From positions 1 to 57,499 of the forward strand of contig WQXA01000002.1 in assembly GCA_009785095.1 (NCBI GenBank): a stretch of DNA of 57,499 nt. The letters run 5' to 3'. How positions within the stretch are numbered: the first letter of the stretch is position 1; every line of letters starts with the position of its first letter. Under the pieces are notes generated by a model. It ran no database searches. It was not told where the DNA came from and worked only from the letters and a program-made list of their open reading frames with translations. The position numbers were made by a program, and so were the translations under genes. This document shows positions 7,499 to 54,078 of this stretch, in pieces. The DNA is from Candidatus Saccharimonadota bacterium. GTDB lineage: Bacteria > Patescibacteriota > Saccharimonadia > Saccharimonadales > Saccharimonadaceae.

Positions 7499-8302
7499 GT
7501 GCACGTTTCGATAAAAGCCGAACCACTTTTTGAGATGTTTGGTATTGAGATAACCAACGCGATTTTGCTCGGGATTATCGGCCTGGGTTTTTTGATCGTG
7601 TGGATGATTTTTGTAGCGCGAAAAATTGCCCAGGATCGCTACGGCTCGGATAAGAAAGGTTTCTTTACGCGGCTGGTGCTCTGGGTGTTCGAGGGTTTGT
7701 ATAAAACCGTCCACGAAACTATCCCGAATAAAAAAGTCGCCCGTCAGGTCGCGCCGTTCGTCATTACGATTTTCTTTATCGTGGTGATCCAATATTACAC
7801 CGGGATTTTGCCGTTTGTTGGCGAGGCTATGACGTTCGGTCACACTCCCCTGTTCCGCTCACAGGCGGCCGATTTGAATTTCACGCTGACACTAGCGATT
7901 ATCACGATTGTGGCCTGTCAAGTTTGGGCGTTTCGCGTGCTCGGTTTCAAGGGTAACATGCATCGTTATTTTGTTAATCCGCTCAAAGATCCGATCGGTT
8001 GTTTCGCCGGTTTTCTCGAGCTAATCGGCGAATTTTCGCGCATGTTGGCGCTGGCCATGCGTTTGTTCGGGAATGTCTTTGCGGGCGAGGTGCTGCTAGT
8101 TGTGGTGGCTTATCTCGGTTCGTTTGCGAGCCCGGCGCTGCTGCCCTTCTTTTACATTTTTGAATTATTCATCGGTGGCATCCAGGCCTATGTCTTTTTC
8201 ATGTTGGCCACCGTTTTCATCGGATTGGCTGTCTCGCACGACAGTCACGCGGAATCTGTTCACTCAACTGAGGTTAAAATGGTGAGTGAAATGTCAACTT
8301 AA
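7499..8302 (+). CDS. atpB: F-type ATP synthase subunit a
   Basis: 267 aa, membrane proton channel of Fo. The GTG start at 7499 is chosen because the conserved opening HVSIKAEPLFE follows it; GGAG precedes it. About five membrane helices are visible. The essential arginine lies in LALAMRLFGNVFAGE, and the C-terminal helix YIFELFIGGIQAYVFFMLA is typical. It works with the c-ring in the cytoplasmic membrane. Confidence 0.95.
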   Translation: MHVSIKAEPLFEMFGIEITNAILLGIIGLGFLIVWMIFVARKIAQDRYGSDKKGFFTRLVLWVFEGLYKTVHETIPNKKVARQVAPFVITIFFIVVIQYYTGILPFVGEAMTFGHTPLFRSQAADLNFTLTLAIITIVACQVWAFRVLGFKGNMHRYFVNPLKDPIGCFAGFLELIGEFSRMLALAMRLFGNVFAGEVLLVVVAYLGSFASPALLPFFYIFELFIGGIQAYVFFMLATVFIGLAVSHDSHAESVHSTEVKMVSEMST

Positions 8303-8316
8303 ACGAAAGGAACGAA

Positions 8317-8529
8317 ATGGAAAGCATGGCATTTAGTCTGGCGTATGTGGTGCCGGCCTTTGGTGCGGCGATCGGTGTGGGTATCATCGGTAGCGCGGCA
8401 CTTAACGCGGTGGGTCGCAACCCCGAAAAAGCTAGCACGATTCAGCAAATGATGATCCTAGCCATCGCCTTTACCGACGCTCTGGCTATTATCGGTGTCA
8501 TTGTGGCAATTCTTGGTAAGGTCATGTAG
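8317..8529 (+). CDS. atpE: F-type ATP synthase subunit c
   Basis: 70 aa, two transmembrane helices joined by the polar loop RNPE (34-37). The first helix carries the glycine-rich packing motif (FGAAIGVGIIGSAA). The ion-binding carboxylate is Asp54 in AFTDALAIIG; no Na+-type glutamine/serine ligand set is evident, which favours protons. GAAAGGAACGA precedes the ATG. It forms the rotor ring. Confidence 0.95.
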   Translation: MESMAFSLAYVVPAFGAAIGVGIIGSAALNAVGRNPEKASTIQQMMILAIAFTDALAIIGVIVAILGKVM

Positions 8530-8537
8530 GGCGACAC

Positions 8538-9101
8538 GTGGAGAAATTACTCTATCTATTCGCCTCTACCGAGGCCAGCGAAGAAGTTACGGGCGGGATG
8601 TTTGGTAGCTTGGGCATCGATTGGAAAGTCATGATTCTGCAACTCATCGCCTTTGGCGTTTTGGTGTTTGTCTTGGCAAAGTGGGTTTATCCGCCGATCC
8701 TGGCTATGCTAGATCGTCGCCAAAAACTGATCGATGACAGCATCAAGGCAGCCAAAAAAGCCAGCGCCGATTCCGAAAAGGCCGCCAAAGACATCGCCCA
8801 GCAGCTATCGAAAGCCCGCGTCGAGGCCGAGGATATCGTGGCTGCCGCGCACAAACAAACCGAACAGATCCTAGTCGACGCCAACCAAGAGGCCGAGCGG
8901 CGATCCGAGGCGACCGTGGCGGCTGCTCGAGCGCAGTTAGCGCGTGACGTCGAAACAGCGCGCAAAACTCTGCGCGACGAAACGGCCAATTTGGTGGCGC
9001 TAGCGACCGAAAAAGTCGTCGACGAAAAAGTCGACATGACCAAGGACGCCAAATTGATCCGCGAGGCGATCTCTAAAACTGAAAAAGAGGTTAAGGAATA
9101 A
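8538..9101 (+). CDS. atpF: F-type ATP synthase subunit b
   Basis: 187 aa, GTG start. One N-terminal membrane helix (about 30-50, VMILQLIAFGVLVFVLAKWV) is followed by a long alanine- and charge-rich coiled coil, the peripheral stalk. It overlaps atpH by one base. The length is somewhat above the bacterial norm because of an extra N-terminal 25 residues before the helix. Confidence 0.93.
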   Translation: MEKLLYLFASTEASEEVTGGMFGSLGIDWKVMILQLIAFGVLVFVLAKWVYPPILAMLDRRQKLIDDSIKAAKKASADSEKAAKDIAQQLSKARVEAEDIVAAAHKQTEQILVDANQEAERRSEATVAAARAQLARDVETARKTLRDETANLVALATEKVVDEKVDMTKDAKLIREAISKTEKEVKE

Positions 9102-11721: not shown

Positions 11722-12183
11722 ATGAACATCATCGTTGGCAGCGTCGTAGTCCAGGACGGAAAAATCTTGCTGGTTCAAGAAGCCAGGCCGGCTGTTTACG
11801 GCCAGTGGAATGTCCCGGCTGGCTATTTGGATGAAGGCGAAACGATTGTGTCCGGCGCAATACGAGAGACCAAAGAAGAAACTGGTTACGATGTTGAGCC
11901 GGAGGAGGGGGGCTTGCTTTTGATTAGTGATCCGACGTTCCAAGTCCGTGGCCATGCGATCGTGGTAATTTTATTCAAGATGAAGGTCGTTGGCGGTGAA
12001 TTGGCGTTTGACAAAAACGAAATTTTGGATGCCAAATGGGTGCCGATCGATGAGACTTCTTCCTTAGAATTTCGTGACGGTATCAGGAGGTTACTCGGCG
12101 AAATATTACGTCGCCTCAAGAGCGGCGAGAGCTATCCACTGAGCCTGACGTATGATGCGATCACGCAGAAAGAGGCGGGATGA
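11722..12183 (+). CDS. NUDIX hydrolase inserted in the atp operon
   Basis: 153 aa. The Nudix box runs GYLDEGETIVSGAIRETKEE plus TGY (residues about 33-55), with the REtKEE metal-binding glutamates intact. It hydrolyses nucleoside diphosphate derivatives; substrate unknown. The ATG follows the atpA stop immediately, and the gene overlaps the next by ATGA. A G6 run at 11905-11912 lies in frame. Confidence 0.85.
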   Translation: MNIIVGSVVVQDGKILLVQEARPAVYGQWNVPAGYLDEGETIVSGAIRETKEETGYDVEPEEGGLLLISDPTFQVRGHAIVVILFKMKVVGGELAFDKNEILDAKWVPIDETSSLEFRDGIRRLLGEILRRLKSGESYPLSLTYDAITQKEAG

Positions 12184-12683
12184 AAGTTTTGTTCGTCTGC
12201 AACAATACCGTCGGTCGCTCGCAGGCCGCAAAAGCGTTTTACAATCAGTTGACCAATTCACATGACGCGGATGCGGCGGGGGTTGGGCTGAGGCTTCCCG
12301 AGGCCGATACCATGCTCAAGTTTTTTGTGGCAAAGAACGGAGAAGCTGCGATGTACAAAACTCTGCAAGAGATCGGCATTGACATCGGTGATTATCCGCG
12401 CGTGCAGCTAACACCCGAGATGCTTGGGGGGGGGTATGACTTGATAGTGAATATTGCTGACAAGAGTCAAACGCCGAAATGGCTGCGTGGCGACAAAGTA
12501 ATCTGGTGGAATGTTCCTGATCCCGGCCACAAAGAAAATTTTGAGGAGCGCCTAGTGTACTCAAGAGTCACGCGCGATTTGATGCGCGAGCGCGTGAAAA
12601 AGCTGATCGAAATTGAAAAATCCGGTGGGGATTTTCACAAACTCGACGACAATATCGACGGAGGCAAAAATGACAGGAAATGA
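12180..12683 (+). CDS. Low-molecular-weight tyrosine phosphatase/arsenate reductase-like protein with in-frame G9
   Basis: 167 aa. The P-loop CNNTVGRS (Cys7, Arg13) fits the C-x5-R-S motif of LMW protein tyrosine phosphatases, and DPG in VPDPGHKE supplies the general acid aspartate. Predicted to remove phosphate from phosphotyrosine or a related ester in the cytoplasm. Codons 83-85 are a pure GGG run (G9 at 12426-12434) read as GGG in MLGGGYDLI. At nine bases the frame is open; a change of one base would truncate it. Coupled to the NUDIX gene by ATGA. Confidence 0.75.
   Translation: MKVLFVCNNTVGRSQAAKAFYNQLTNSHDADAAGVGLRLPEADTMLKFFVAKNGEAAMYKTLQEIGIDIGDYPRVQLTPEMLGGGYDLIVNIADKSQTPKWLRGDKVIWWNVPDPGHKENFEERLVYSRVTRDLMRERVKKLIEIEKSGGDFHKLDDNIDGGKNDRK
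12426..12434 (+). repeat. G9 homopolymer in phosphatase-like gene (in frame)
   Basis: Nine consecutive G, flanked TGCTT and TATGAC. It starts exactly on a codon boundary (codons 83-85). Candidate slipped-strand site. Confidence 0.9.
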
Positions 12684-14195: not shown

Positions 14196-16507
<2,312 letters not shown>

Positions 16508-16515
<8 letters not shown>

Positions 16516-18255: not shown

Positions 18256-18717
18256 TCATCGGTGGTTGTATCTAGAAAATTTTAGAAAGCTCTGCGAACG
18301 AGCTAATGACTCTAGTAGCTCCAGCCTCGAAAAGTCGCAATTGTTTGCAAGGACGGAGCTTGCAATGAGGGCGCTGCCGCCGCCGGATTTGACGACTTTC
18401 TTGTCGGGACAGCCCATGTTGATGTCGATACCGGCGAAACCTCTGGTGGCCAAGGCGTGCGCCATTTTTGCAAAATGTTCGGGCTGGCTGCCCCAAATTT
18501 GCGCCACGATCGGCATTTCGTCCGGCGTAAAAGTCAAACGACCACGCGTTGAAAATTCCCCCTTCTCGGAACAGAAACTGGCGGTGTTGGTGAACTCAGT
18601 AAAGAAAACATCAGGCCGTCCAGCACGCGCCACGACGTGACGAAAGACCACGTCGGTGACATCCTCCATCGGCGCCAGCGCGAAAAATGGTCGCGGCAGT
18701 TCGTCCCAAAAACTCAT
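18256..18717 (-). pseudogene. dus: Truncated tRNA-dihydrouridine synthase
   Basis: 153 aa; complete Dus proteins are about 310-340 aa. The N-terminal FMN-binding half is clear ([50 protein letters not shown]). After the catalytic-Cys region the protein runs into IASSVLAN, encoded by a palindromic repeat (18345-18365), then unrelated residues and a stop. The rest of the TIM barrel and the tRNA-binding domain are absent, so activity is unlikely. It starts by ATGA overlap with the uvrD-like gene. Confidence 0.75.
18345..18365. repeat. 21-bp palindromic repeat at the dus breakpoint
   Basis: Identical to the repeat at 1701-1721 (TTGCAAG, GACGGAG, CTTGCAA). Dus homology ends beside it. Confidence 0.75.
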
Positions 18718-22601: not shown

Positions 22602-22631
22602 TTGACAAATGTGCATGGGGGGGGGTATACT
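22602..22631 (+). promoter_or_regulatory. Sigma70 promoter with G9 run in the -35/-10 spacer
   Basis: TTGACA (22602-22607) and TATACT (22626-22631) are 18 bases apart. The last nine spacer bases are G9 (22617-22625), touching the -10. Eight G would give the optimal 17-base spacer; ten would give 19. Tract-length change should set promoter strength, as in known phase-variable promoters of other bacteria. Confidence 0.8.
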
Positions 22632-29813: not shown

Positions 29814-30838
29814 CTACAATTCGGCGCCGGCCAATTCGGGCGGTAGTTTCAAACCGGCAGTCCGCGCCAGTGCTTTGCTGGACATAAATCTTTCGCAGGC
29901 TTCCCTTGCCATCGACACTTCATTTGCGCCCGCTTGCTCTAAATGATGTTCGGTGCAATAATTAACTATTGCTTCATCAACCTTACTCTGTAATCCCTTG
30001 GGGATATGGAGCATTGTCTCAGGGTTTTCACCTTCAGTGCTTGTAAGACATAACGCCCCGTTTTTGTCTAGGCTTACGAGAGTGTGACGGAGAATTCTTC
30101 GATCTCCGTCCCCACAACCGCTCTCGGGTATTTGATCGGGGATCATATAAAAGGGTCTGCCTACTACGTCATATATCAGTTGCAAGAAGTCATAATTAGC
30201 CTGTTTTATTGCTACTACTCTAGTGTGCCTAATATCCGCTATCCCACAATTTACTCCTAAAAATTCTGATGCTTTGCCCCTAGTGTGTAGCGGATTATTT
30301 AGTGTTAAACTTGCAGGTATGGTTATAACATCTGATACTTGAAGACGAGCTAAGCCAAGAAGCTTTGCTTTTTCTAGTTGTGACTTATTGGCTAGTGTCT
30401 TTGCAGTTTTGCCGACCCAAGATTTACATTTTTGCGCCCTTATAAGCTGAGCAGACAAGGCTTCCACCGACAACAGATCCTCTATATCAATGATTGAGGT
30501 CGCGTCTAGCGGGGGAGTGCCTTCCTCAATCAACATCCCCATTACCGCTCTTACGGAGTGTGACTCGACGGATTGAGCCGTGCTATCATCTTCAGCAAAT
30601 ACGTCAGTACCAGCGACGTATTGTCCTCCGGGCGACATATAGCGAATGGCTAACGGAGCCAATCCCGATGCCGCAAGGCTCCTGACGTGTTCCGACACGC
30701 TCGTTTCTACTATGCGCAAACCGGGATTGGCAATCGTTGCACCAGTACCAAACCCCTTTAGCAAGCGGCTACGTACATCATCTGGGGGGGGGTCACGTTA
30801 CCTGAATCCCCTTTTGGGCGCCGACGTAAAAAACTCAT
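29814..30838 (-). CDS. Orphan protein, out of frame at a C9 run (phase OFF)
   Basis: Not recognised. The ATG at 30838 has GGAGAAAGAAG just upstream and opens M-S-F-L-R-R-R-P-K-G. At codons 16-19 the coding strand carries C9 (30784-30792). As sequenced, ACC-CCC-CCC-CAG leads to a stop after 25 codons. One extra C (or two fewer) joins this start to the long downstream frame, giving 341 aa. An internal TTG at 30764 is the only start in that frame near the tract. The body is soluble, with no known motif. A TTGACT-17-TATCAT promoter precedes it. Confidence 0.8.
30784..30792 (-). repeat. C9 homopolymer (G9 on plus strand) that breaks the frame
   Basis: Nine C on the coding strand at codons 16-19 of the orphan gene. 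Ten are needed for the open frame. Confidence 0.9.
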
Positions 30839-40294: not shown

Positions 40295-41179
40295 TTACAT
40301 AAAGAAATTCAACATATCCGGCAGCTCTACTTCGCGGCCGATGTCTTCGAGTCTTTCAACAATATGATAGTTATAATCTGCCTGATAATTAGCAAATATC
40401 TCCCCTATGACAAGAGTCTTGTCCTTGGGAGTAACCCCCCCCCTGCGCTCTAAACCATCAAAACTGTCAACTATGTATTTGATAGCGGCGACATATTCTC
40501 GCCAGCCCCTAGTGGCAATAATACCTAGACGACCCTGCATTCGACTGAGACGCTCTTTGAGCCCCTCAATACACTCTACAGTGAGCCTATCTGTTGAGCC
40601 TGGTTCGACTTCATATGGCCGCGTGCTGTTGGCGCATTGCTGTAGGGTATCAGCAAGGATAGTAGCCTTGGCTAGCCCAAAAAACATATCTAGGGACGGT
40701 ATCATTCTTGTGGTGCGACGGCTGCCTCCATCATTAAGTGATGGCGGCACCAAATCCATGTCGTTATCGCCTGGCACGAGGGATAACAGCATCAGATCCA
40801 TGTCGACGTTGGCTTCATCCAGACCGTTGCCTATAATGAACGAGTAGTTTGAGGCGCGGCATGGACCGCCAGTCGCCGTAATTAAGGCTACCCTTTCCTT
40901 GCCGTCCAAATTCTTAGAATGATGATCTAATAGGGCACCGGCAACAGCCGTAGCTGGTCCACAAATCTCTATTGGCATGTGATCCAGACCACGCTGAATA
41001 GCTGTGGCACCGATAGCATTTTCCACCTCAACTGCGTTAAAGCCAGCTTGCCTTAGCAGCTCAGTATACAGCGGCATAGTGTACGGATTCATTGGAGGAA
41101 CTAAATACTCAACTCCGTCCCTGGGCTGGGTCGGTTCCCCTAGAAATTTTTTTGATAGTTTAGCTATTATTTCGTACAA
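40295..41179 (-). CDS. HgdB-like subunit with in-frame G9
   Basis: About 294 aa. It has HMPIEICGPATAVAGALL near the N-terminus and the closing GEIFANYQADYNYHIVERLE then LPDMLNFF, the C-terminal pattern of HgdB/BcrB-like dehydratase subunits. The start is unclear: no ATG fits, TTG at 41179 or CTG at 41191 are the options after an in-frame TAG. G9 on the coding strand (40435-40443) covers codons 246-249 (RRGGV) in frame. A TTGACA-17-TATTAT promoter lies about 55 bases upstream. Confidence 0.7.
   Translation of the reverse strand: MYEIIAKLSKKFLGEPTQPRDGVEYLVPPMNPYTMPLYTELLRQAGFNAVEVENAIGATAIQRGLDHMPIEICGPATAVAGALLDHHSKNLDGKERVALITATGGPCRASNYSFIIGNGLDEANVDMDLMLLSLVPGDNDMDLVPPSLNDGGSRRTTRMIPSLDMFFGLAKATILADTLQQCANSTRPYEVEPGSTDRLTVECIEGLKERLSRMQGRLGIIATRGWREYVAAIKYIVDSFDGLERRGGVTPKDKTLVIGEIFANYQADYNYHIVERLEDIGREVELPDMLNFFM
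40435..40443 (-). repeat. G9 homopolymer in HgdB-like gene (in frame)
   Basis: C9 on the plus strand, G9 on the coding strand, read AGG-GGG-GGG-GTT (R-G-G-V). It is the only run of the set with C on the plus strand. Confidence 0.9.
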
Positions 41180-45098: not shown

Positions 45099-46736
45099 CT
45101 ACTCGGATTTCTTATCTAGCGTCATAAACTTTAGCCGCTCGGGGTGGAAATAGAGCTCGACTCTGCCGGTCGGTCCGTTGCGGTGCTTGGACAGCAAGAG
45201 CTCAGTGATATGTTGGCGATCGGTGTCGGGATTGTAGTAATCTTCGCGGTACAGAAACAGCACTAGGTCGGCGTCCTGTTCGATCGAGCCAGATTCGCGC
45301 AGATCCGACAGCATCGGACGCTTGTCGGGACGTTGTTCGACCAAGCGCGACAGCTGCGACAGCGCAAGCACCGGCACGTCGAGCTCGCGCGCCAGCAATT
45401 TCAAACCGCGCGAAATCTCGCTGACTTCCTGGACGCGATTGTCACCATATTTACCGGCCGTCGACATCAGTTGCAAATAATCCACGATGATGAGACCGAG
45501 CGGCGTTTTGTGCGCCTGGCGGCGAGCCTTGGTGCGCATTTCGAGGATGCTCAGTCCCGGCGTGTCGTCAAAGAAAATCGGCGCTTCGGCCATCTCGCCC
45601 ATGGCTTCGGAAATCTTGGCAAAGTCATCGTCGCTCAAATTACCGGTGCGAATATTCCAACTATCGACGCCCGACGCTTCGGCCAACATGCGATCGACCG
45701 TCTGGGAATTCGACATTTCGAGGTTGAAAATGAGCACGGCTTTGTTTTCTTTGGCCGCGACGTTATAAGCGATGTTCTGCGCCAGAGTTGATTTGCCCAT
45801 GCTGGGTCGCGACGCCAAAATCACTAGGTCGGATTTCTGCAGTCCGGCCGTCAAGCGATCGAGATCACGAAAACCAGTTTTGATGCCGCGCAGTTTACCT
45901 TTGTCGCGATGGAGCTCCTCCATGCGGTCGAAACTCTCGGTCAAAATGCTCTCTATGCTCACCAGGTCGGATTTCTCGTTGGCCTCGCTCACCTGGAACA
46001 AACTCGATTCAGCCGTAGCCAAAATTTCGGCGATTTCGGCGCTGTCTGAAAAAGCTAGTTCGCTAATTTTCGAACCGGCGTTGATCAAGCGGCGGCGGAT
46101 GGCGGCGGCGGACACGATGTCGGCATAAGAAGCGGCGTGAGCGCTCGATGGCACGTAATTCGTCAGCTCGGACAGATAGGTGGCGCCACCGATGGCTTTT
46201 AGGTCGTCGCTTTTTTTGAGCTCGTCGGTCAAAGTCAAAAGGTCGACCGGCGCGTGTTTTTCGTACAAACGGATCATGGCGGCGAAGATTTTTTCGTGGC
46301 GCGGATCGTAAAAGTCGATGGCGTGGACTTTATCGGCCACGTCCGCCAAAACTTCTTCGTCGATCAAGACAGCACCGAGCAGCGACATCTCAGCGTCGAG
46401 ATTTTGCGGCGGGATTTTGCCGGTGGGCAAGGATTGTGCTTCCCGCGAGCCAGCCCCGCTGCTCACCAAACTACCCGCGACAGTTCGCTCGTCAAGCCCG
46501 TCGTCACGGGTCTCCTCGCTCGTCCTCGCCGTAGCTGAGATAGACTGTCGCGATTGGTTTGGTTCGCGCTCGTCATTACGGGATGAAGAAAATGATTCGG
46601 GTAGAGTCGGCAACTTAGCCGAAGCTGGACTCGCCTTCTCTTTCGCGTTATTCTTTCTCGCCGCAGCTTCAACAACCGGCGCGTCGGTTTTGCGCTCACC
46701 GCTCAAATCTGCACTAGTGGAACTATGTTTTGCCAT
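45099..46736 (-). CDS. dnaB: Replicative DNA helicase DnaB
   Basis: 545 aa. The N-terminal 115 residues are low-complexity, an extension beyond the usual 450-470 aa protein. The DnaB N-domain begins at PPQNLDAEMSLLGAVLIDEE, and the RecA-like helicase domain has LVILASRPSMGKSTLAQN (Walker A), LIIVDYLQLM (Walker B), ELDVPVLALSQLSR and DADLVLFLYREDYY. It unwinds DNA at the replication fork. It overlaps dnaX by 14 bases. Confidence 0.95.
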   Translation of the reverse strand: MAKHSSTSADLSGERKTDAPVVEAAARKNNAKEKASPASAKLPTLPESFSSSRNDEREPNQSRQSISATARTSEETRDDGLDERTVAGSLVSSGAGSREAQSLPTGKIPPQNLDAEMSLLGAVLIDEEVLADVADKVHAIDFYDPRHEKIFAAMIRLYEKHAPVDLLTLTDELKKSDDLKAIGGATYLSELTNYVPSSAHAASYADIVSAAAIRRRLINAGSKISELAFSDSAEIAEILATAESSLFQVSEANEKSDLVSIESILTESFDRMEELHRDKGKLRGIKTGFRDLDRLTAGLQKSDLVILASRPSMGKSTLAQNIAYNVAAKENKAVLIFNLEMSNSQTVDRMLAEASGVDSWNIRTGNLSDDDFAKISEAMGEMAEAPIFFDDTPGLSILEMRTKARRQAHKTPLGLIIVDYLQLMSTAGKYGDNRVQEVSEISRGLKLLARELDVPVLALSQLSRLVEQRPDKRPMLSDLRESGSIEQDADLVLFLYREDYYNPDTDRQHITELLLSKHRNGPTGRVELYFHPERLKFMTLDKKSE

Positions 46737-48153
46737 TGTATACCACCTCTCCTCCGCCCATTATATCAAGAATTTGCGCTGCGGCCGAATTCTCGCGCAC
46801 TGCTGATGCGGAAATCGTGATTTTTGGCGCGGAACCATAGAGTTTTTGAAAAGCTTGGCCGAGGACGTTGCGGAATTTGGCGGTGTCAGCCTTTTTTCGA
46901 TGGAAGATTTTTGAAAAGTAAAGCGTCAGCCGGCCGTCGTCGTAATCGAAATCGGCGAATTTGAGCGTGGCCAAAACCGTCGGCTCGTCAAGATTTTTCA
47001 CCTCCGCCAAAATGTCGCCCCAGGCGAAATTGGTCCGCATCTTGCTCGTCGAATCGTCTTTCTCGGCGAAAGCATCACCTTCCTCCGCGATCTTCTGCTC
47101 AATAATCTCAGCCAACTCGATGTCGGCTTTAGTCGAAGTGGCGACGGCAGCAGAAGTCGTCGGAACGCTCTTGCTCGCGGCGCTGGCTAATATGGCGGTC
47201 AATTTGATGTCCGGCGCCGAAGATCGGGCGACCTCTAATAACTTTTCAATCAAATCATACAATCGCGGCTTGTCGGGCGCCAATTTGCCGAGTTCGCGCA
47301 GGAGCTGGTCGACAATCAACGCCGGCGCCACGCCGTCACTAAACGAATCGTTCAACGTCGCGATCACGGTCGGCGCGTCGTGCGCGGTGATAGCATCGAT
47401 GATCGTGGCAATAGTCGTCTCGGGCGCCAGCCCTAGAATCTCCTCGACCATCGAGCGCGTTACTCGGCCGCCCGAATTGGACAGTTGATCGAGCAGACCG
47501 ATGCTGTCACGAAAACTACCCTGCCCGTGCTCAGCGATGAGATTGAGCGCCTCGTCGTCGGCCGCAATTTTTTCCTTATCGGCGATTTGCCTGAGGTGCC
47601 GCGCCATAATTTCGGTCGAAACGGGACGAAAATGAAAACGCTGAACACGACTAAGGACGGTGGCCGGGACTTTATGGATTTCTGTGGTTGCTAGGATGAA
47701 AACAATATGCGCCGGCGGCTCCTCGATAATTTTGAGCAGCGCGTTAAAGGCCGACGTCGACAGCATATGCACCTCGTCGATGATATAAATTTTGTGACTA
47801 GCGGCGGCCGGCGCGATGGCCGATTTGTCGCGCAGCTCGCGGGCGTCGTCGACCGAACCGCGGCTAGCGGCATCGATCTCGATAATGTCCAAATCAGCAC
47901 TAGAATCATCGGCCGTGTACGGCGTGTTGTTGATGAGATGCGCCAAAATGCGCGCCGTCGATGTTTTGCCGGTACCGCGCTGGCCGGTGAACAAATAGGC
48001 ATGAGCAAACTGGCCGCTCTGGGCGGCTGCCGTCAAAATCTCCGTGACCTGCGGTTGGCCAACAACCTCGCCCAACGTCGTCGGACGATAGCGGCGATAT
48101 AGCGCGATTTTCCTAAGCGAAACCCCACTAGCGGATTTTCCCCTCTCACTCAT
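46723..48153 (-). CDS. dnaX: DNA polymerase III gamma/tau subunit, zinc module lost
   Basis: 476 aa. AAA+ clamp loader: YRRYRPTTLGEVVGQPQV, Walker A FTGQRGTGKTSTAR, Walker B IIDEVHMLS, sensor 1 FILATTEIHKVP, SRVQRF and sensor 2 GSFRDSIGLLDQL. The four cysteines that normally follow the Walker A helix are absent (INNTPYTADDSSADLD) and the segment is shorter. The -10 TAAAAT is six bases before the ATG. Forms an operon with dnaB. Confidence 0.95.
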   Translation of the reverse strand: MSERGKSASGVSLRKIALYRRYRPTTLGEVVGQPQVTEILTAAAQSGQFAHAYLFTGQRGTGKTSTARILAHLINNTPYTADDSSADLDIIEIDAASRGSVDDARELRDKSAIAPAAASHKIYIIDEVHMLSTSAFNALLKIIEEPPAHIVFILATTEIHKVPATVLSRVQRFHFRPVSTEIMARHLRQIADKEKIAADDEALNLIAEHGQGSFRDSIGLLDQLSNSGGRVTRSMVEEILGLAPETTIATIIDAITAHDAPTVIATLNDSFSDGVAPALIVDQLLRELGKLAPDKPRLYDLIEKLLEVARSSAPDIKLTAILASAASKSVPTTSAAVATSTKADIELAEIIEQKIAEEGDAFAEKDDSTSKMRTNFAWGDILAEVKNLDEPTVLATLKFADFDYDDGRLTLYFSKIFHRKKADTAKFRNVLGQAFQKLYGSAPKITISASAVRENSAAAQILDIMGGGEVVYNGKT

Positions 48154-48159
48154 GCGACC

Positions 48160-48165
48160 ATTTTA
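48160..48165 (-). promoter_or_regulatory. -10 box of dnaX, leaderless
   Basis: TAAAAT on the minus strand, exactly six bases before the ATG at 48153. Confidence 0.55.
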
Positions 48166-48263
48166 ACACGTCGAAAAAGAAAATACTGTAGTAATTTTTA
48201 CAGGATAACTAACGCATCCATAGGCAAAATTAAGCATTTGCATTATAACATCTATTTAACGTA

Positions 48264-48292
48264 TTGACAAGCAAACAATAGTGGCGTATAAT
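48264..48292 (+). promoter_or_regulatory. Consensus promoter of the phase-OFF orphan gene at 48327
   Basis: TTGACA (48264-48269) and TATAAT (48287-48292), both perfect, with a 17-base spacer. One of the strongest-looking promoters in the window. Confidence 0.75.
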
Positions 48293-48326
48293 CCGTGTAA
48301 TAATTAAAGGATTGGAGAATTAGAGA

Positions 48327-49150
48327 ATGGCGCCGAACAAGGGAAAAAAAGGCAACCAGGGTCAAGGTGGTAATCCGGGGGGGGGCAGGTCAAGAAGCAA
48401 ACTCGGAGGCAGAGGGATGCGGTAAAAAGAGTTCATGAAAGCCGAGGCGAGGGTGAATATACCGGTAAGTCTCCTGAGGATGTTCATGCAGATAACCTAG
48501 AAAAAATAAATAAGATCAGGAGAGGGCGAGGGCTGGGTGCAGTAGCGTCAGATATTGTCGCAGCGCGGATTGAACCAGAGCAACTACAATCGCACGATAT
48601 ACCACTAACCTGGGCTCAAGAAAGAGCGGCAGAACAAAAAGAGAGACAAAAAGAATGGTTGCTTGAAATAAATAGGAGGGCAAAAGAAAAACTAGATGCG
48701 CAACGAGAAGAACGAGAACAAGCGGAGGCGGCAAGACAGGCTCGCTTAGATAAGGTGGAAGCAGCGTTGTTAGCGAAAGCAAAACTTGGTATGAAGGGGG
48801 AAGTTTTTGATGAATATAGGTGGGACGTACCAGCCGTTAACGAAATTCTAGTTGATAGATTCCTGGCGGAGCGCACGCTCGCGCGCAATGATCTAATGGC
48901 TATATTGGGCGAGCCTCATGGTTTGGATGTAGGGGGCATGGAGCGTGTCGTTGCTGATATTGTTCGGGAAAGCTTACGTAAGATTAGTCATATTTATCCA
49001 CAACCCACATCGCTCTCTGAGGAACACATACATGTACCAACAAGATACGATTATAAAAGTAGAAGAGACGTCCCGATTTTTGATGTCGATGGTCGCCTAC
49101 CAATCCATGACATATTAGCTGACATGGCTGAGCAGCTGAAGACTAAGTAA
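48327..49150 (+). CDS. Orphan protein, out of frame at a G9 run (phase OFF)
   Basis: Not recognised. The ATG at 48327 (GGAG about 11 bases upstream) opens M-A-P-N-K-G-K-K-G-N-Q-G-Q-G-G-N-P. The G9 at 48377-48385 covers codons 17-20. As sequenced, the frame ends at TAA 48423-48425 after 32 codons. One extra G would open a 274-aa frame ending at 49150. That frame has no ATG, GTG or TTG before 48659, so the upstream ATG must be its true start. The protein would have a basic Gly-rich N-terminus, a long charged coiled coil (about 110-150) and a C-terminal domain. Confidence 0.8.
48377..48385 (+). repeat. G9 homopolymer that breaks the frame
   Basis: Nine G after AATCC, at codons 17-20 of the orphan gene at 48327. 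Ten (or seven) are needed for the open frame. Confidence 0.9.
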
Positions 49151-49204
49151 CGACGCGCGCAATCCAACCCCAGTTTCGATGATGACGCCCACTGTTAGCT
49201 ATAT

Positions 49205-49732
49205 CTACAACACAGCCTCGACCGCGGCCCATTCGGCTTCGCGGTTGTCTTCGGGGACGATAATGGAGACTTGGTCGCCGATGTGGGCTTTGAAAAACGT
49301 CACGCTCGCCAAAAGGACGCGGAATTCTTTGCCGCCGGCCTCGACGTAATAGGCGCCGTCGTGTTGGACTAGTGTGCCGATGAGTTGGCGTCGGGCGACG
49401 GGGCCGATTTGCTTGTAAATGAACGAACCGTCCTCGGCGATGGTCAATTTCAGGATATCGCCCTCAACCAATTTCGATTTAGAGGCGTAATTGGCCGGCA
49501 CGGGGTAGGCTTTGCCGTCGGCGTCGTGCATGGTTTGGCCGTCGAAAACGCCTTCGATGACTTTGCCGGCGACCTCTTCGACGGTGCGCGTTGGCAGATC
49601 GTCGTCACCGACCATGCTGTACAATAATTCTTTGGCGGCCGCCAGATTGGTCTCGGCCTCGTTCAACAGAGCACGCAAACGTTTGACTTGCTTTTCTGGC
49701 AGTAGTGTGTCGTTGGTGTCATTCTCGCTCAT
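49205..49732 (-). CDS. Conserved-looking protein of unknown function
   Basis: 175 aa, not recognised. The N-terminal 50 residues are a predicted coiled coil (KQVKRLRALLNEAETNLAAA). The remainder is beta-rich (VEGDILKLTIAEDGSFIYKQ, EFRVLLASVTFFKAHIGDQV), like an OB- or KOW-type barrel. Acidic, soluble, with core-like codon use. The TATAAT at about 49782 leaves a leader of about 45 bases. Confidence 0.65.
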   Translation of the reverse strand: MSENDTNDTLLPEKQVKRLRALLNEAETNLAAAKELLYSMVGDDDLPTRTVEEVAGKVIEGVFDGQTMHDADGKAYPVPANYASKSKLVEGDILKLTIAEDGSFIYKQIGPVARRQLIGTLVQHDGAYYVEAGGKEFRVLLASVTFFKAHIGDQVSIIVPEDNREAEWAAVEAVL

Positions 49733-49920: not shown

Positions 49921-50609
49921 TTAAGAGCCCACCTTGATTCTCGGCGGGATTTGACCGCCTTCAGGGTCGAATTTGCTGTAATTGATTTCTTGAGGAATAG
50001 GTTGACTTGTCTGTAAATTTCTCACTCTCATACTGAGTGCCAACCAGGTCGCCAACGAATGGTCGTCTGAGGGGTGGAGACCCGATACTGCTATCGCACC
50101 ACCCTCTACAATAACTCCACCAGTTCGTACCGCGAAGCCACCTAGTATATGCGACAAATCGTGGCCTTCTATATCTACTTCGCCCGCTTCTGCTGAGGCC
50201 GTATTACGTCCCAAGGCAATTGCGCCCAAGGCTTTTATTACCGCAATTTCTTCAGGATTTCTGCCCTTTTCATCTTCACCGTACCCCTCAGGTTCGCGTA
50301 GCGTTATCGCGCCTTTAATTAGATTCTGCCGCAACGCCTGGAGTACCCGCGGGTCAACGTCAACTTCTACTCCCTCTCCTCTAGAAAGCGCATCATCAAT
50401 CTTCAATGCTGTCTCGATCATGCCCAGCCTGGTTGCTTTAATGGAGAGCTTCTGAAGTTCTTCCCGACTAAGTTCTAGGGGGGGGTCTCCAAAGGCCGTT
50501 CATTTGAAACGTAGACAGCAAATACGGAGACATTCTCATTGCCGGCCGGAGATGAATGAACGGGAAGAACATCCTTCGCGTCTTTCATCTGATTTTGCAT
50601 GTCGCTCAT
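49921..50609 (-). CDS. Orphan protein, out of frame at a C8 run (phase OFF)
   Basis: Not recognised. The ATG at 50609 opens M-S-D-M-Q-N-Q-M-K-D-A-K. The coding strand has C8 (50478-50485) at codons 42-44; the next codon is TAG, giving a 44-aa peptide. One extra C yields ...ETPPLELSREELQ... and joins the long frame to 49921, for 229 aa. The body is acidic and soluble, with a glycine-rich beta stretch (GGFAVRTGGVIVEGGAIAVS) like a small right-handed repeat. A TTGACA-17-TAGAAT promoter gives a very short leader. Confidence 0.78.
50478..50485 (-). repeat. C8 homopolymer (G8 on plus strand) that breaks the frame
   Basis: Eight C on the coding strand; nine, the length seen at the other seven runs, would open the frame. 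Confidence 0.9.
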
Positions 50610-52062: not shown

Positions 52063-54078
52063 TTAGATCTTGCCCCTTCGTCTCCTAGGGGCGGCATCTG
52101 TCGCAGCTACTGCAGCTTCGCCCACACTTGTCTCGCCAAAATGTTCGACCTCCAGGCGTTGCCGCCAAGATTCGTGAGCGCTCCTCACACTCACCGAGTC
52201 TGGACGCCCCATATGTTTTTTGCGTTTAGTGAGTTCCTTAATGGCCGCCACCAGTCTGCTTATGTTGGATGACGCCTTATGACCTGCCTTGAATAGCCAA
52301 TGAGCGATTTTGCCATCCCGCATAGCGGTACGATAATCCTCGGTTACACATTGGATTTCCATAGGTAGCTCAACGCCGTCATCCCTCGTGTAGATAAAGG
52401 TTATTTTAGCGACGTGCACGTCGTCATTTGTGTATTCTATGAATTTCTCACCTTCTCCCTCTCCCCATTTGAATTCAATCATGCCTTGTATGGTTTCTTC
52501 CGAAAGACCTATCTTAGACAAATGAGTGGAAAAATCCTCCGTGAATTTTTTTGTTCCGCGGATTTGAATAGCTTGTTTTCGAGAAGGCGCTGGTTTTGAC
52601 CTATATCTAGAAGGGTCTATCGACTGAGCCTCGAGCAGATTCCCAACCATTCGCCCAAATATAACGTGCTGGTCGCTTTCATCCTGTGCCATGACTGTGA
52701 CACCCACAATATCCATTATTAGTGTGGTAATGTCTGGGCTATTCTCTATTTCGTCTAAGATCTTCTCCGGAGTCTTTCCAGTCTTATCAGCCTCCTTCTT
52801 GACGTATTGCTTGATTTTCCAGCCAAGAGAACCGTCACTTTTTATGCGGTAACGAACTCGGTTCGAATCTCCTGCAGAACCCTCAATCCAACCTTCACCA
52901 TATGTGATTCTGGACGGGGACTCGTCACTTTTAATTAAAGGATTAGTAGCAGCCGTAGAGCCAGATAATTCTTCTAAAACACTTTCCACGGCTGAATTGA
53001 TATTTTCAGCCCCTGGCAAGTCTTTTTTAATTCGGCGGGCTAGTTCTAAACATCGCCGATCCGTATGAGTTCCAAAGGTCAGTCTTATTTCCTTTGCCAT
53101 GCCGTCTAGTGCTATAAACAGGGCATCGAACCCCTGGCTTTCCGCTAAGTGTGCTAGAACCTCTTGGGCGAGCATTACTTCACGGAAAACCACCGGATTA
53201 TTGAATTTATCCCTTTCGGTTGGGTCAGATAGAATTTGCGTCGCCCTGATAAGATCAGCAAGAGCTTCAACTGCCCTAATTAATGAGTTTTCCATATTGG
53301 TATCATGCAACACGTTCCGCATCCGGTCTGCCTGGACTAGATTGCTGACATCGGCTGTCGACCATGTAGATTCATCAATTGGTTTATGTTCCACTTGCTT
53401 TAACACAAAATCCACCAGACCCCCCTCAGGCAGGACAAGTTTCCCAAACTTAAACTTGGTATTCAGTTGTCCGTAGAAGTGCTTTATAAAATCTGCGATT
53501 TTTCGTCGGTGTCTCCCGAGATCATATGTATAGGTTAATTCACGCTCAGGTGATAGCTCGCATGGAAAAATCTCATCAAATGGCTGCTTGCTTTTCAGAT
53601 GGTTTTTGTATGGGTTGTCATGAATGTTCTCAGGCTCGACATAAGAATGGGGGGGGGATTTAGCGAACCAACTACCATCACCCGTTTCGTAGTGATTCCT
53701 AGTCCACTCGCAAAACATTTTCCAAGCAGAACGGAATATTTCCCCAGTTGCTGGAATGAGCCGTAAGTCTTCACGAGTACCATCAAATATCGGGCCTAAC
53801 ATGGCTGTATAATAAGTGAACGGATTTAGCTTTCTATCTTCGCCGTCAATACTACTATCAACGCCAAATTCTTTGAGCAATTGATTTATTAAATTTAGCC
53901 GTTCATATAAAGCATCTCGTTCCTCAGGACTTTTAAACGGATAATTCTCGTAAATCTTTATAACCAGCTCAGTAGCTTCAAGAATAATTGCTTCTCATGA
54001 TTGGATGGCAGCCGCTTTGTAACGGGCGTGACGCCCACGTGGGCGTCCTCCTCTAGGAGTACTTTTCTGGGGATCCAT
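52063..54078 (-). CDS. RelA/SpoT-homology-like protein with in-frame C9 and an early TGA
   Basis: From the ATG at 54078 the frame is 671 codons with one internal TGA at codon 28 (53995-53997). The ATG follows TATAAT by eight bases and opens M-D-P-Q-K-S-T-P-R-G-G-R-P-R-G-R. Coding character continues past the TGA (EAIILEATELVIKIYENY). C9 (53649-53657), codons 141-144, is in frame. In the C-terminal third, DIVGVTVM and LPMEIQCVTEDYRTAMRDGK then IAHWLFKAG resemble the (p)ppGpp synthetase fold. The enzyme role is tentative. As sequenced the gene is disrupted, or initiates internally (TTG 53880). Confidence 0.6.
53649..53657 (-). repeat. C9 homopolymer (G9 on plus strand) in RSH-like gene (in frame)
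   Basis: Read TCC-CCC-CCC-CAT (S-P-P-H), codons 141-144, in frame at nine bases. Confidence 0.9.

Follow-up and report, generated by a model that had tools for sequence, protein, structure and literature searches.

In the Neisseria genes porA and opc a G/C tract lies between the -35 and -10 boxes, and the resulting spacer length sets promoter strength. The poly-G/C tracts of Campylobacter show length peaks at 9 (53%) and 10 (26%); C. jejuni is reported to possess 18-39 phase-variable genes per genome and carries C on the coding strand in 5% of its in-ORF tracts (PMC6321876). Published sets comprise 29 tract-associated coding regions for Helicobacter canadensis (PMC2823697) and 115 repeat-switched genes for Neisseria meningitidis (PMC5084427). 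For a bacterium of the candidate phyla radiation (CPR), a hypervariable gene with 9-base amino-acid repeats that keep the frame was reported in Gracilibacterium (PMC6851277). Among the open-licence papers searched we found no report of phase variation in Saccharibacteria or other CPR bacteria.

We analyzed a stretch of 57,499 nucleotides (the window), which is contig C2 of the 781-kb, 38-contig genome of a Candidatus Saccharimonadota bacterium (G000). It contains a G9 tract which separates a start codon from a long open frame. This tract belongs to a genome-wide class which resembles the Campylobacter poly-G/C loci: the commonest tract lengths are 9 and 10, the tracts lie mostly in ORFs, and one base toggles the frame. 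Moreover, many Campylobacter tract genes occur in single isolates, and the tract genes described here are mostly lineage-specific. In contrast to C. jejuni, 101 tracts are found in 0.78 Mb, C is on the coding strand in about 38% of the ORF tracts (32/84), the phylum is a different one, and the tracts are known from assemblies instead of within-strain variation. Like porA and opc, 16 tracts of G000 are located in promoter spacers; however, the promoter of the locus under study is tract-free with an optimal 17-base spacer, and the promoter-spacer tracts form another class in the same genome. A genome-wide set of repeat-switched genes, here a putative one, is shared with H. canadensis and N. meningitidis. 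These are cultured organisms with larger genomes and evidence from strains or deep sequencing, whereas the genome studied here is uncultured and the product is an orphan. The Gracilibacterium gene is likewise a variable repeat locus of a CPR bacterium, but it is one gene, no homopolymer switch and not genome-wide. The mechanism is already known from Campylobacter, Helicobacter and Neisseria, while the host group and the tract density appear to be new.

Anatomy and setting of the locus

The target gene is located between dnaX (46723-48153) and a conserved gene encoding 175 amino acids (49205-49732). The original prediction described a perfect promoter followed by an ATG, a frame that ends after 32 codons, a frame one base over that is open to 49150 without a start of its own before 48659, and a G9 tract at codons 17-20 which is one base short of a 274-aa frame. 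All of these elements were verified base by base and agree with the description (Table 1). The -35 box TTGACA occupies 48264-48269 and the -10 box TATAAT 48287-48292 with a spacer of 17 bases. The start codon ATG (48327-48329) is preceded by GGAG about 10 bases upstream. The assembled frame encodes 32 amino acids, MAPNKGKKGNQGQGGNPGGGRSRSKLGGRGMR*, and terminates with the stop codon at 48423-48425. The neighboring frame P0001 comprises 258 open codons from 48374 to its stop codon at 49148-49150, and its earliest ATG, GTG or TTG is the TTG at 48659. At this base composition a stretch of 258 codons would stay open by chance with a probability of approximately 6 × 10^-6. Addition of one G to the tract joins the ATG to the long frame and yields an ORF of 274 aa; consequently, a single-unit change toggles the reading frame between 32 codons (G9) and 274 aa (one more G). 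An A7 run at 48344 was ruled out as frameshift site by a stop codon of the long frame at 48371-48373, so that the shift must occur 3' of that stop.

Table 1: Coordinates of the locus and of the other G/C tracts in the window
Feature	Position	Strand	Remark
Sigma-70-type promoter TTGACA-17-TATAAT, exact consensus	48264-48292	+	
Assembled frame, ATG to stop, 32 codons (putative OFF state)	48327-48425	+	
G9 tract, codons 17-20, proposed switch	48377-48385	+	one of 101 genome G/C tracts of at least 8
Downstream open frame P0001, body of the predicted 274-aa orphan protein	48374-49150	+	
G9 inside ORF 12180-12683, in frame	12426-12434	+	
G9 inside ORF 15781-16515 (methyltransferase-like by sequence), in frame	16186-16194	+	tract-less relative in G002
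G9 within promoter spacer, TTGACA-18-TATACT	22617-22625	+	
C9 as read, near start of leftward ORF ending 29814	30784-30792	-	out of frame as assembled; one more base gives 341 aa
G9 in the sense direction (C9 on the + strand), toward the end of ORF 40295-41179; frame call uncertain	40435-40443	-	
G8, read as C8, 5' of ORF 49921-50421	50478-50485	-	assembled out of frame
C9 as read, in frame inside ORF 52063-53880	53649-53657	-	

The claim that the product is an orphan held in every collection tried, as no credible homologue was found in the whole genomes of 199 relatives, in GTDB contigs or in viral, plasmid and phage collections. For the 253-aa product neither Pfam nor PDB yielded a match, and PHROGs gave a single weak one (E = 0.009) confined to a charged helix. 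No paralogue was detected in G000 or in G002, a genome of the same genus. A weak match to an adenylate-kinase-like ORF (L003; E = 0.0097 per genome) was dismissed since such a value is expected by chance across 199 genomes. The product has a basic, glycine-rich N-terminal part and is predicted to lack a membrane segment. AlphaFold without alignment produced a low-confidence model (mean pLDDT 59) with a long helix at model residues 73-134; this model was too poor for a fold search. The coding signal of the target is weak (-0.06 per codon versus 0.21 for core genes), as it is for most tract ORFs. Its codon use is typical among them (rank 32 of 67), and the long frame shows the best codon-use score of the three frames at the locus.

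In relatives the gap that separates dnaX from the 175-aa gene (48154-49204 in the window) is short, empty or filled with different genes, and it looks like a site of gene turnover. The G002 gap opens with a different ATG-started frame bearing a C10 tract, immediately before the contig end. The named relatives, identified via the flanking 175-aa gene, are nearly all metagenome-assembled genomes (MAGs) of Candidatus Saccharibacteria, and the closest include Th196 from the gut of Termes hospes, Co191 from Cornitermes and one reactor MAG. Elsewhere in the window, in a tract-free vicinity, a tRNA-dihydrouridine-synthase-like ORF of 153 aa (18256-18717) has about half the usual length and is directly followed by the next gene.

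G/C tracts in the source genome and its relatives

Sequence of 778 kb from G000 and 621 kb from G002 (about three quarters of the latter) was examined. In G000 the 101 G/C runs of at least 8 bases are mostly 9-10 long. Counts by length are 1 (7 bases), 6 (8), 54 (9), 34 (10), 5 (11), 1 (12) and 1 (13), so that lengths 9 and 10 make up 53% and 33% of the 101 tracts. Under independence only about 4 runs of length 9 and about 1 of length 10 are expected. Runs of 4-7 are scarcer than base composition predicts, and A/T runs end at length 8 without a comparable bump. Eight of the 101 tracts fall in the window, namely the target and seven other G/C runs of 8-9, and 93 lie elsewhere in the genome.

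The placement of the tracts is not that of random sites. Sixteen of the 101 are flanked by near-consensus -35 and -10 boxes with spacers of 16-20 bases, compared to 6 of 268 control runs of 5-6 and 391 of 20,000 random sites (about 2%; Fisher p = 6 × 10^-6), and an ORF starts within about 70 bases of most of these promoters. Eighty-four of the 101 tracts are located in ORFs of 100 aa or more in which the tract length decides whether the frame continues, most of them in the first 60 or so codons. As assembled, 58 of these are in frame and 26 out of frame (61 in frame by a second rule); since each tract was assigned the longest of six possible ORFs, this split is approximate and some single-tract calls will be wrong.

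The tract genes are, as judged by sequence comparison, mostly lineage-specific: a match in G002 was found for 12 of 84 (14%) but for 385 of 632 other ORFs (61%; Fisher p = 1 × 10^-16), the incomplete sequence of G002 lowering both rates alike. Their codon use is far from that of the core (median -0.06 versus 0.21). Among 79 tract ORFs 37 Pfam families were matched, mostly with one ORF per family, including reverse transcriptase, sigma-70 factor, GDSL lipase, NUDIX, PfkB, HAD and methyltransferase. Surface lipoproteins were ruled out as the main class, since a lipobox was present in 3 of 61 in-frame tract ORFs and membrane segments were depleted (8/61 versus 246/697). Consequently, a tract gene should not be assumed by default to encode a surface antigen. 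Two individual ORFs deserve mention. One of about 1169 aa (L254/L075; G000 C1:38598-42047) has a borderline MutS_V match (E = 7 × 10^-8) and a C11 tract around codon 13; should the match prove genuine, a tract would control even a repair-like ATPase. In the other (L096, approximately 7793-8578; G000 C12:8565) a hydrolase-like ORF crosses a G10 tract into the apparent C-terminal half of an amidase gene, a layout which may reflect a fusion, a deletion or a chimeric contig.

Comparison of G000 and G002 revealed differences in tract length at homologous genes. A reverse transcriptase gene carries G13 in frame in G000 (L103, 6945-7955; C17:7475) versus G9 out of frame at the same place in G002 (C19:8686), and another gene carries G9 in frame (C3:22737) versus G10 out of frame (G002 C22:3593). 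A GDSL lipase-like gene has an in-frame tract in both genomes. In a further shared gene the same codon position is occupied by C10 (PPP) in G000 (L112, 897-2945; C26) and by G9 (GGG) in G002 (C12:4315), both in frame. The length of one promoter-spacer tract also differs between the two. Tracts of G002 are enriched within 150 bp of contig ends (6/50, p = 2 × 10^-4), which is what mixed tract lengths in the sample would cause; in G000 such an enrichment was not significant.

A G9 run was present in 67 of the 199 relatives, and some contained dozens. Tract-rich genomes are patchily distributed among Saccharibacteria: at least 10 G9 hits, counted with overlaps and uncorrected for relatedness among genomes, were found in 12 of 50 named genomes, comprising nine termite-gut MAGs (Gx481 and Pcl387 being assigned to termites by the style of their codes only) and three laboratory-reactor MAGs, and the other 38 had 0-5. 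The termite origin of Th196, Co191, Nc150 and Nt197 is documented (PMC7024585), as is that of Hm464 and Gx485 in a study in which Pc512 occurs too (PMC11707648). The three rich reactor MAGs rule out the termite gut as the sole habitat of tract-rich genomes. In a sample of the phylum G9 counts were low in nearly all genomes. In G164, from the same order and another family, G9 hits counted with overlaps numbered 293, double the figure for G000. Loss of mismatch repair is insufficient as the cause of tract richness, as MutS_V is absent from nearly all relatives, rich and poor alike.

Explanations for the interrupted frame

The locus is most probably a phase-variable (contingency) gene that was assembled in its OFF state. 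This reading rests on the anatomy of the locus, the genome-wide excess of tracts, the positions these occupy within frames and promoter spacers, and the ON/OFF differences between homologous tract genes in the two genomes of one genus. The tract-bearing frame which G002 carries in the same gap speaks in its favor, as do the codon use typical of tract ORFs and the best score of the long frame. The weak coding signal, the lack of a significant contig-end enrichment in G000 and the in-frame share of 58/84, which exceeds the one third expected under free drift, count against it. Translational switching by the G tract, as originally predicted, is the best-supported explanation in view of the genome-wide G9-10 class and the two homologous genes with opposite states. 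In such a switch transcription would proceed from the strong consensus promoter, and slipped-strand mispairing at replication would add a G to the codon 17-20 tract or remove one. With nine Gs the ribosome would halt after 32 codons; with ten, or ten plus or minus a multiple of three, it would produce the 274-aa soluble orphan protein. We infer that the tract at 48377 changes its length in living cells and that the product is synthesized and fulfills a variable, accessory role.

A decayed gene, whose frame broke once for good and whose remnant is now drifting, would agree with a product without homologue, weak codon bias and an assembled OFF state. We consider this unlikely, because no second disabling lesion is present: promoter, ribosome site, ATG and all 258 codons are intact, and the sole break falls exactly on a tract of the genome-wide hypermutable class. 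Even less likely is an error of sequencing or assembly, such that the actual tract preserves the frame and the gene is intact. Homopolymer length is the commonest indel error, and a one-base error at tract 48377 alone is possible; however, the tract class as a whole is real, as its members occupy promoter spacers and reappear at corresponding positions in G002. HiSeq 2000/2500 instruments make few homopolymer errors. G002 stems from a project that used them (PMC7024585).

The DNA itself might also remain unchanged. A run of about nine identical bases can cause RNA polymerase slippage, and a mixed mRNA pool transcribed from G9 would constantly provide some full-length protein. The 26 tract ORFs that are out of frame as assembled fit this explanation and are compatible with DNA switching as well, but slippage leaves the promoter-spacer tracts and the length differences between homologous genes unexplained, and it is very unlikely. 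We regard as extremely improbable that the ribosome either changes frame at the tract in a programmed manner or starts internally at the TTG at 48659, an allowed start, to give a 163-aa protein. The two frames do overlap across the tract; yet a stimulatory RNA structure after it is absent (z = -0.25 for 48300-48480), and an internal start would account neither for the 95 codons that are open from 48374 to 48658 nor for the unit of promoter and ATG.

Tract origin and biological meaning

The sequence around the tracts shows several regularities. The base following the G run is T in 67 of 101 tracts of G000 and in 37 of 49 of G002 in either coding orientation (control 37%), and in all 16 promoter-spacer tracts. 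The G strand matches the sign of the local GC skew in 82 of 101 tracts, and does so even in 20 of the 32 with C on the coding strand. This agreement is suggestive of the leading strand. The scarcity of runs of 6-8, the T after the run, the agreement with GC skew and the C10/G9 pair at one shared codon would fit a directional gain of G9-10 tracts instead of a slow growth of short runs. Only with considerable doubt do we suggest such a gain, and that the tracts might jointly serve these host-dependent Saccharibacteria for bet-hedging across the genome, with proteins that are mostly soluble and lineage-specific.

CPR bacteria are believed to have very small gene sets and to live on other microbes. 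If phase variation by tract length holds true, about 100 poly-G switches in less than 0.8 Mb would mean that one of the smallest cell types alters a considerable part of its accessory genes at random. This would offer a concrete, testable way for these symbionts to deal with hosts that change or become resistant. Many apparently broken genes in these genomes would then be readable as OFF states, and caution is advisable when a gene is scored as absent or as a pseudogene in an assembly of this kind, since it may simply be OFF.
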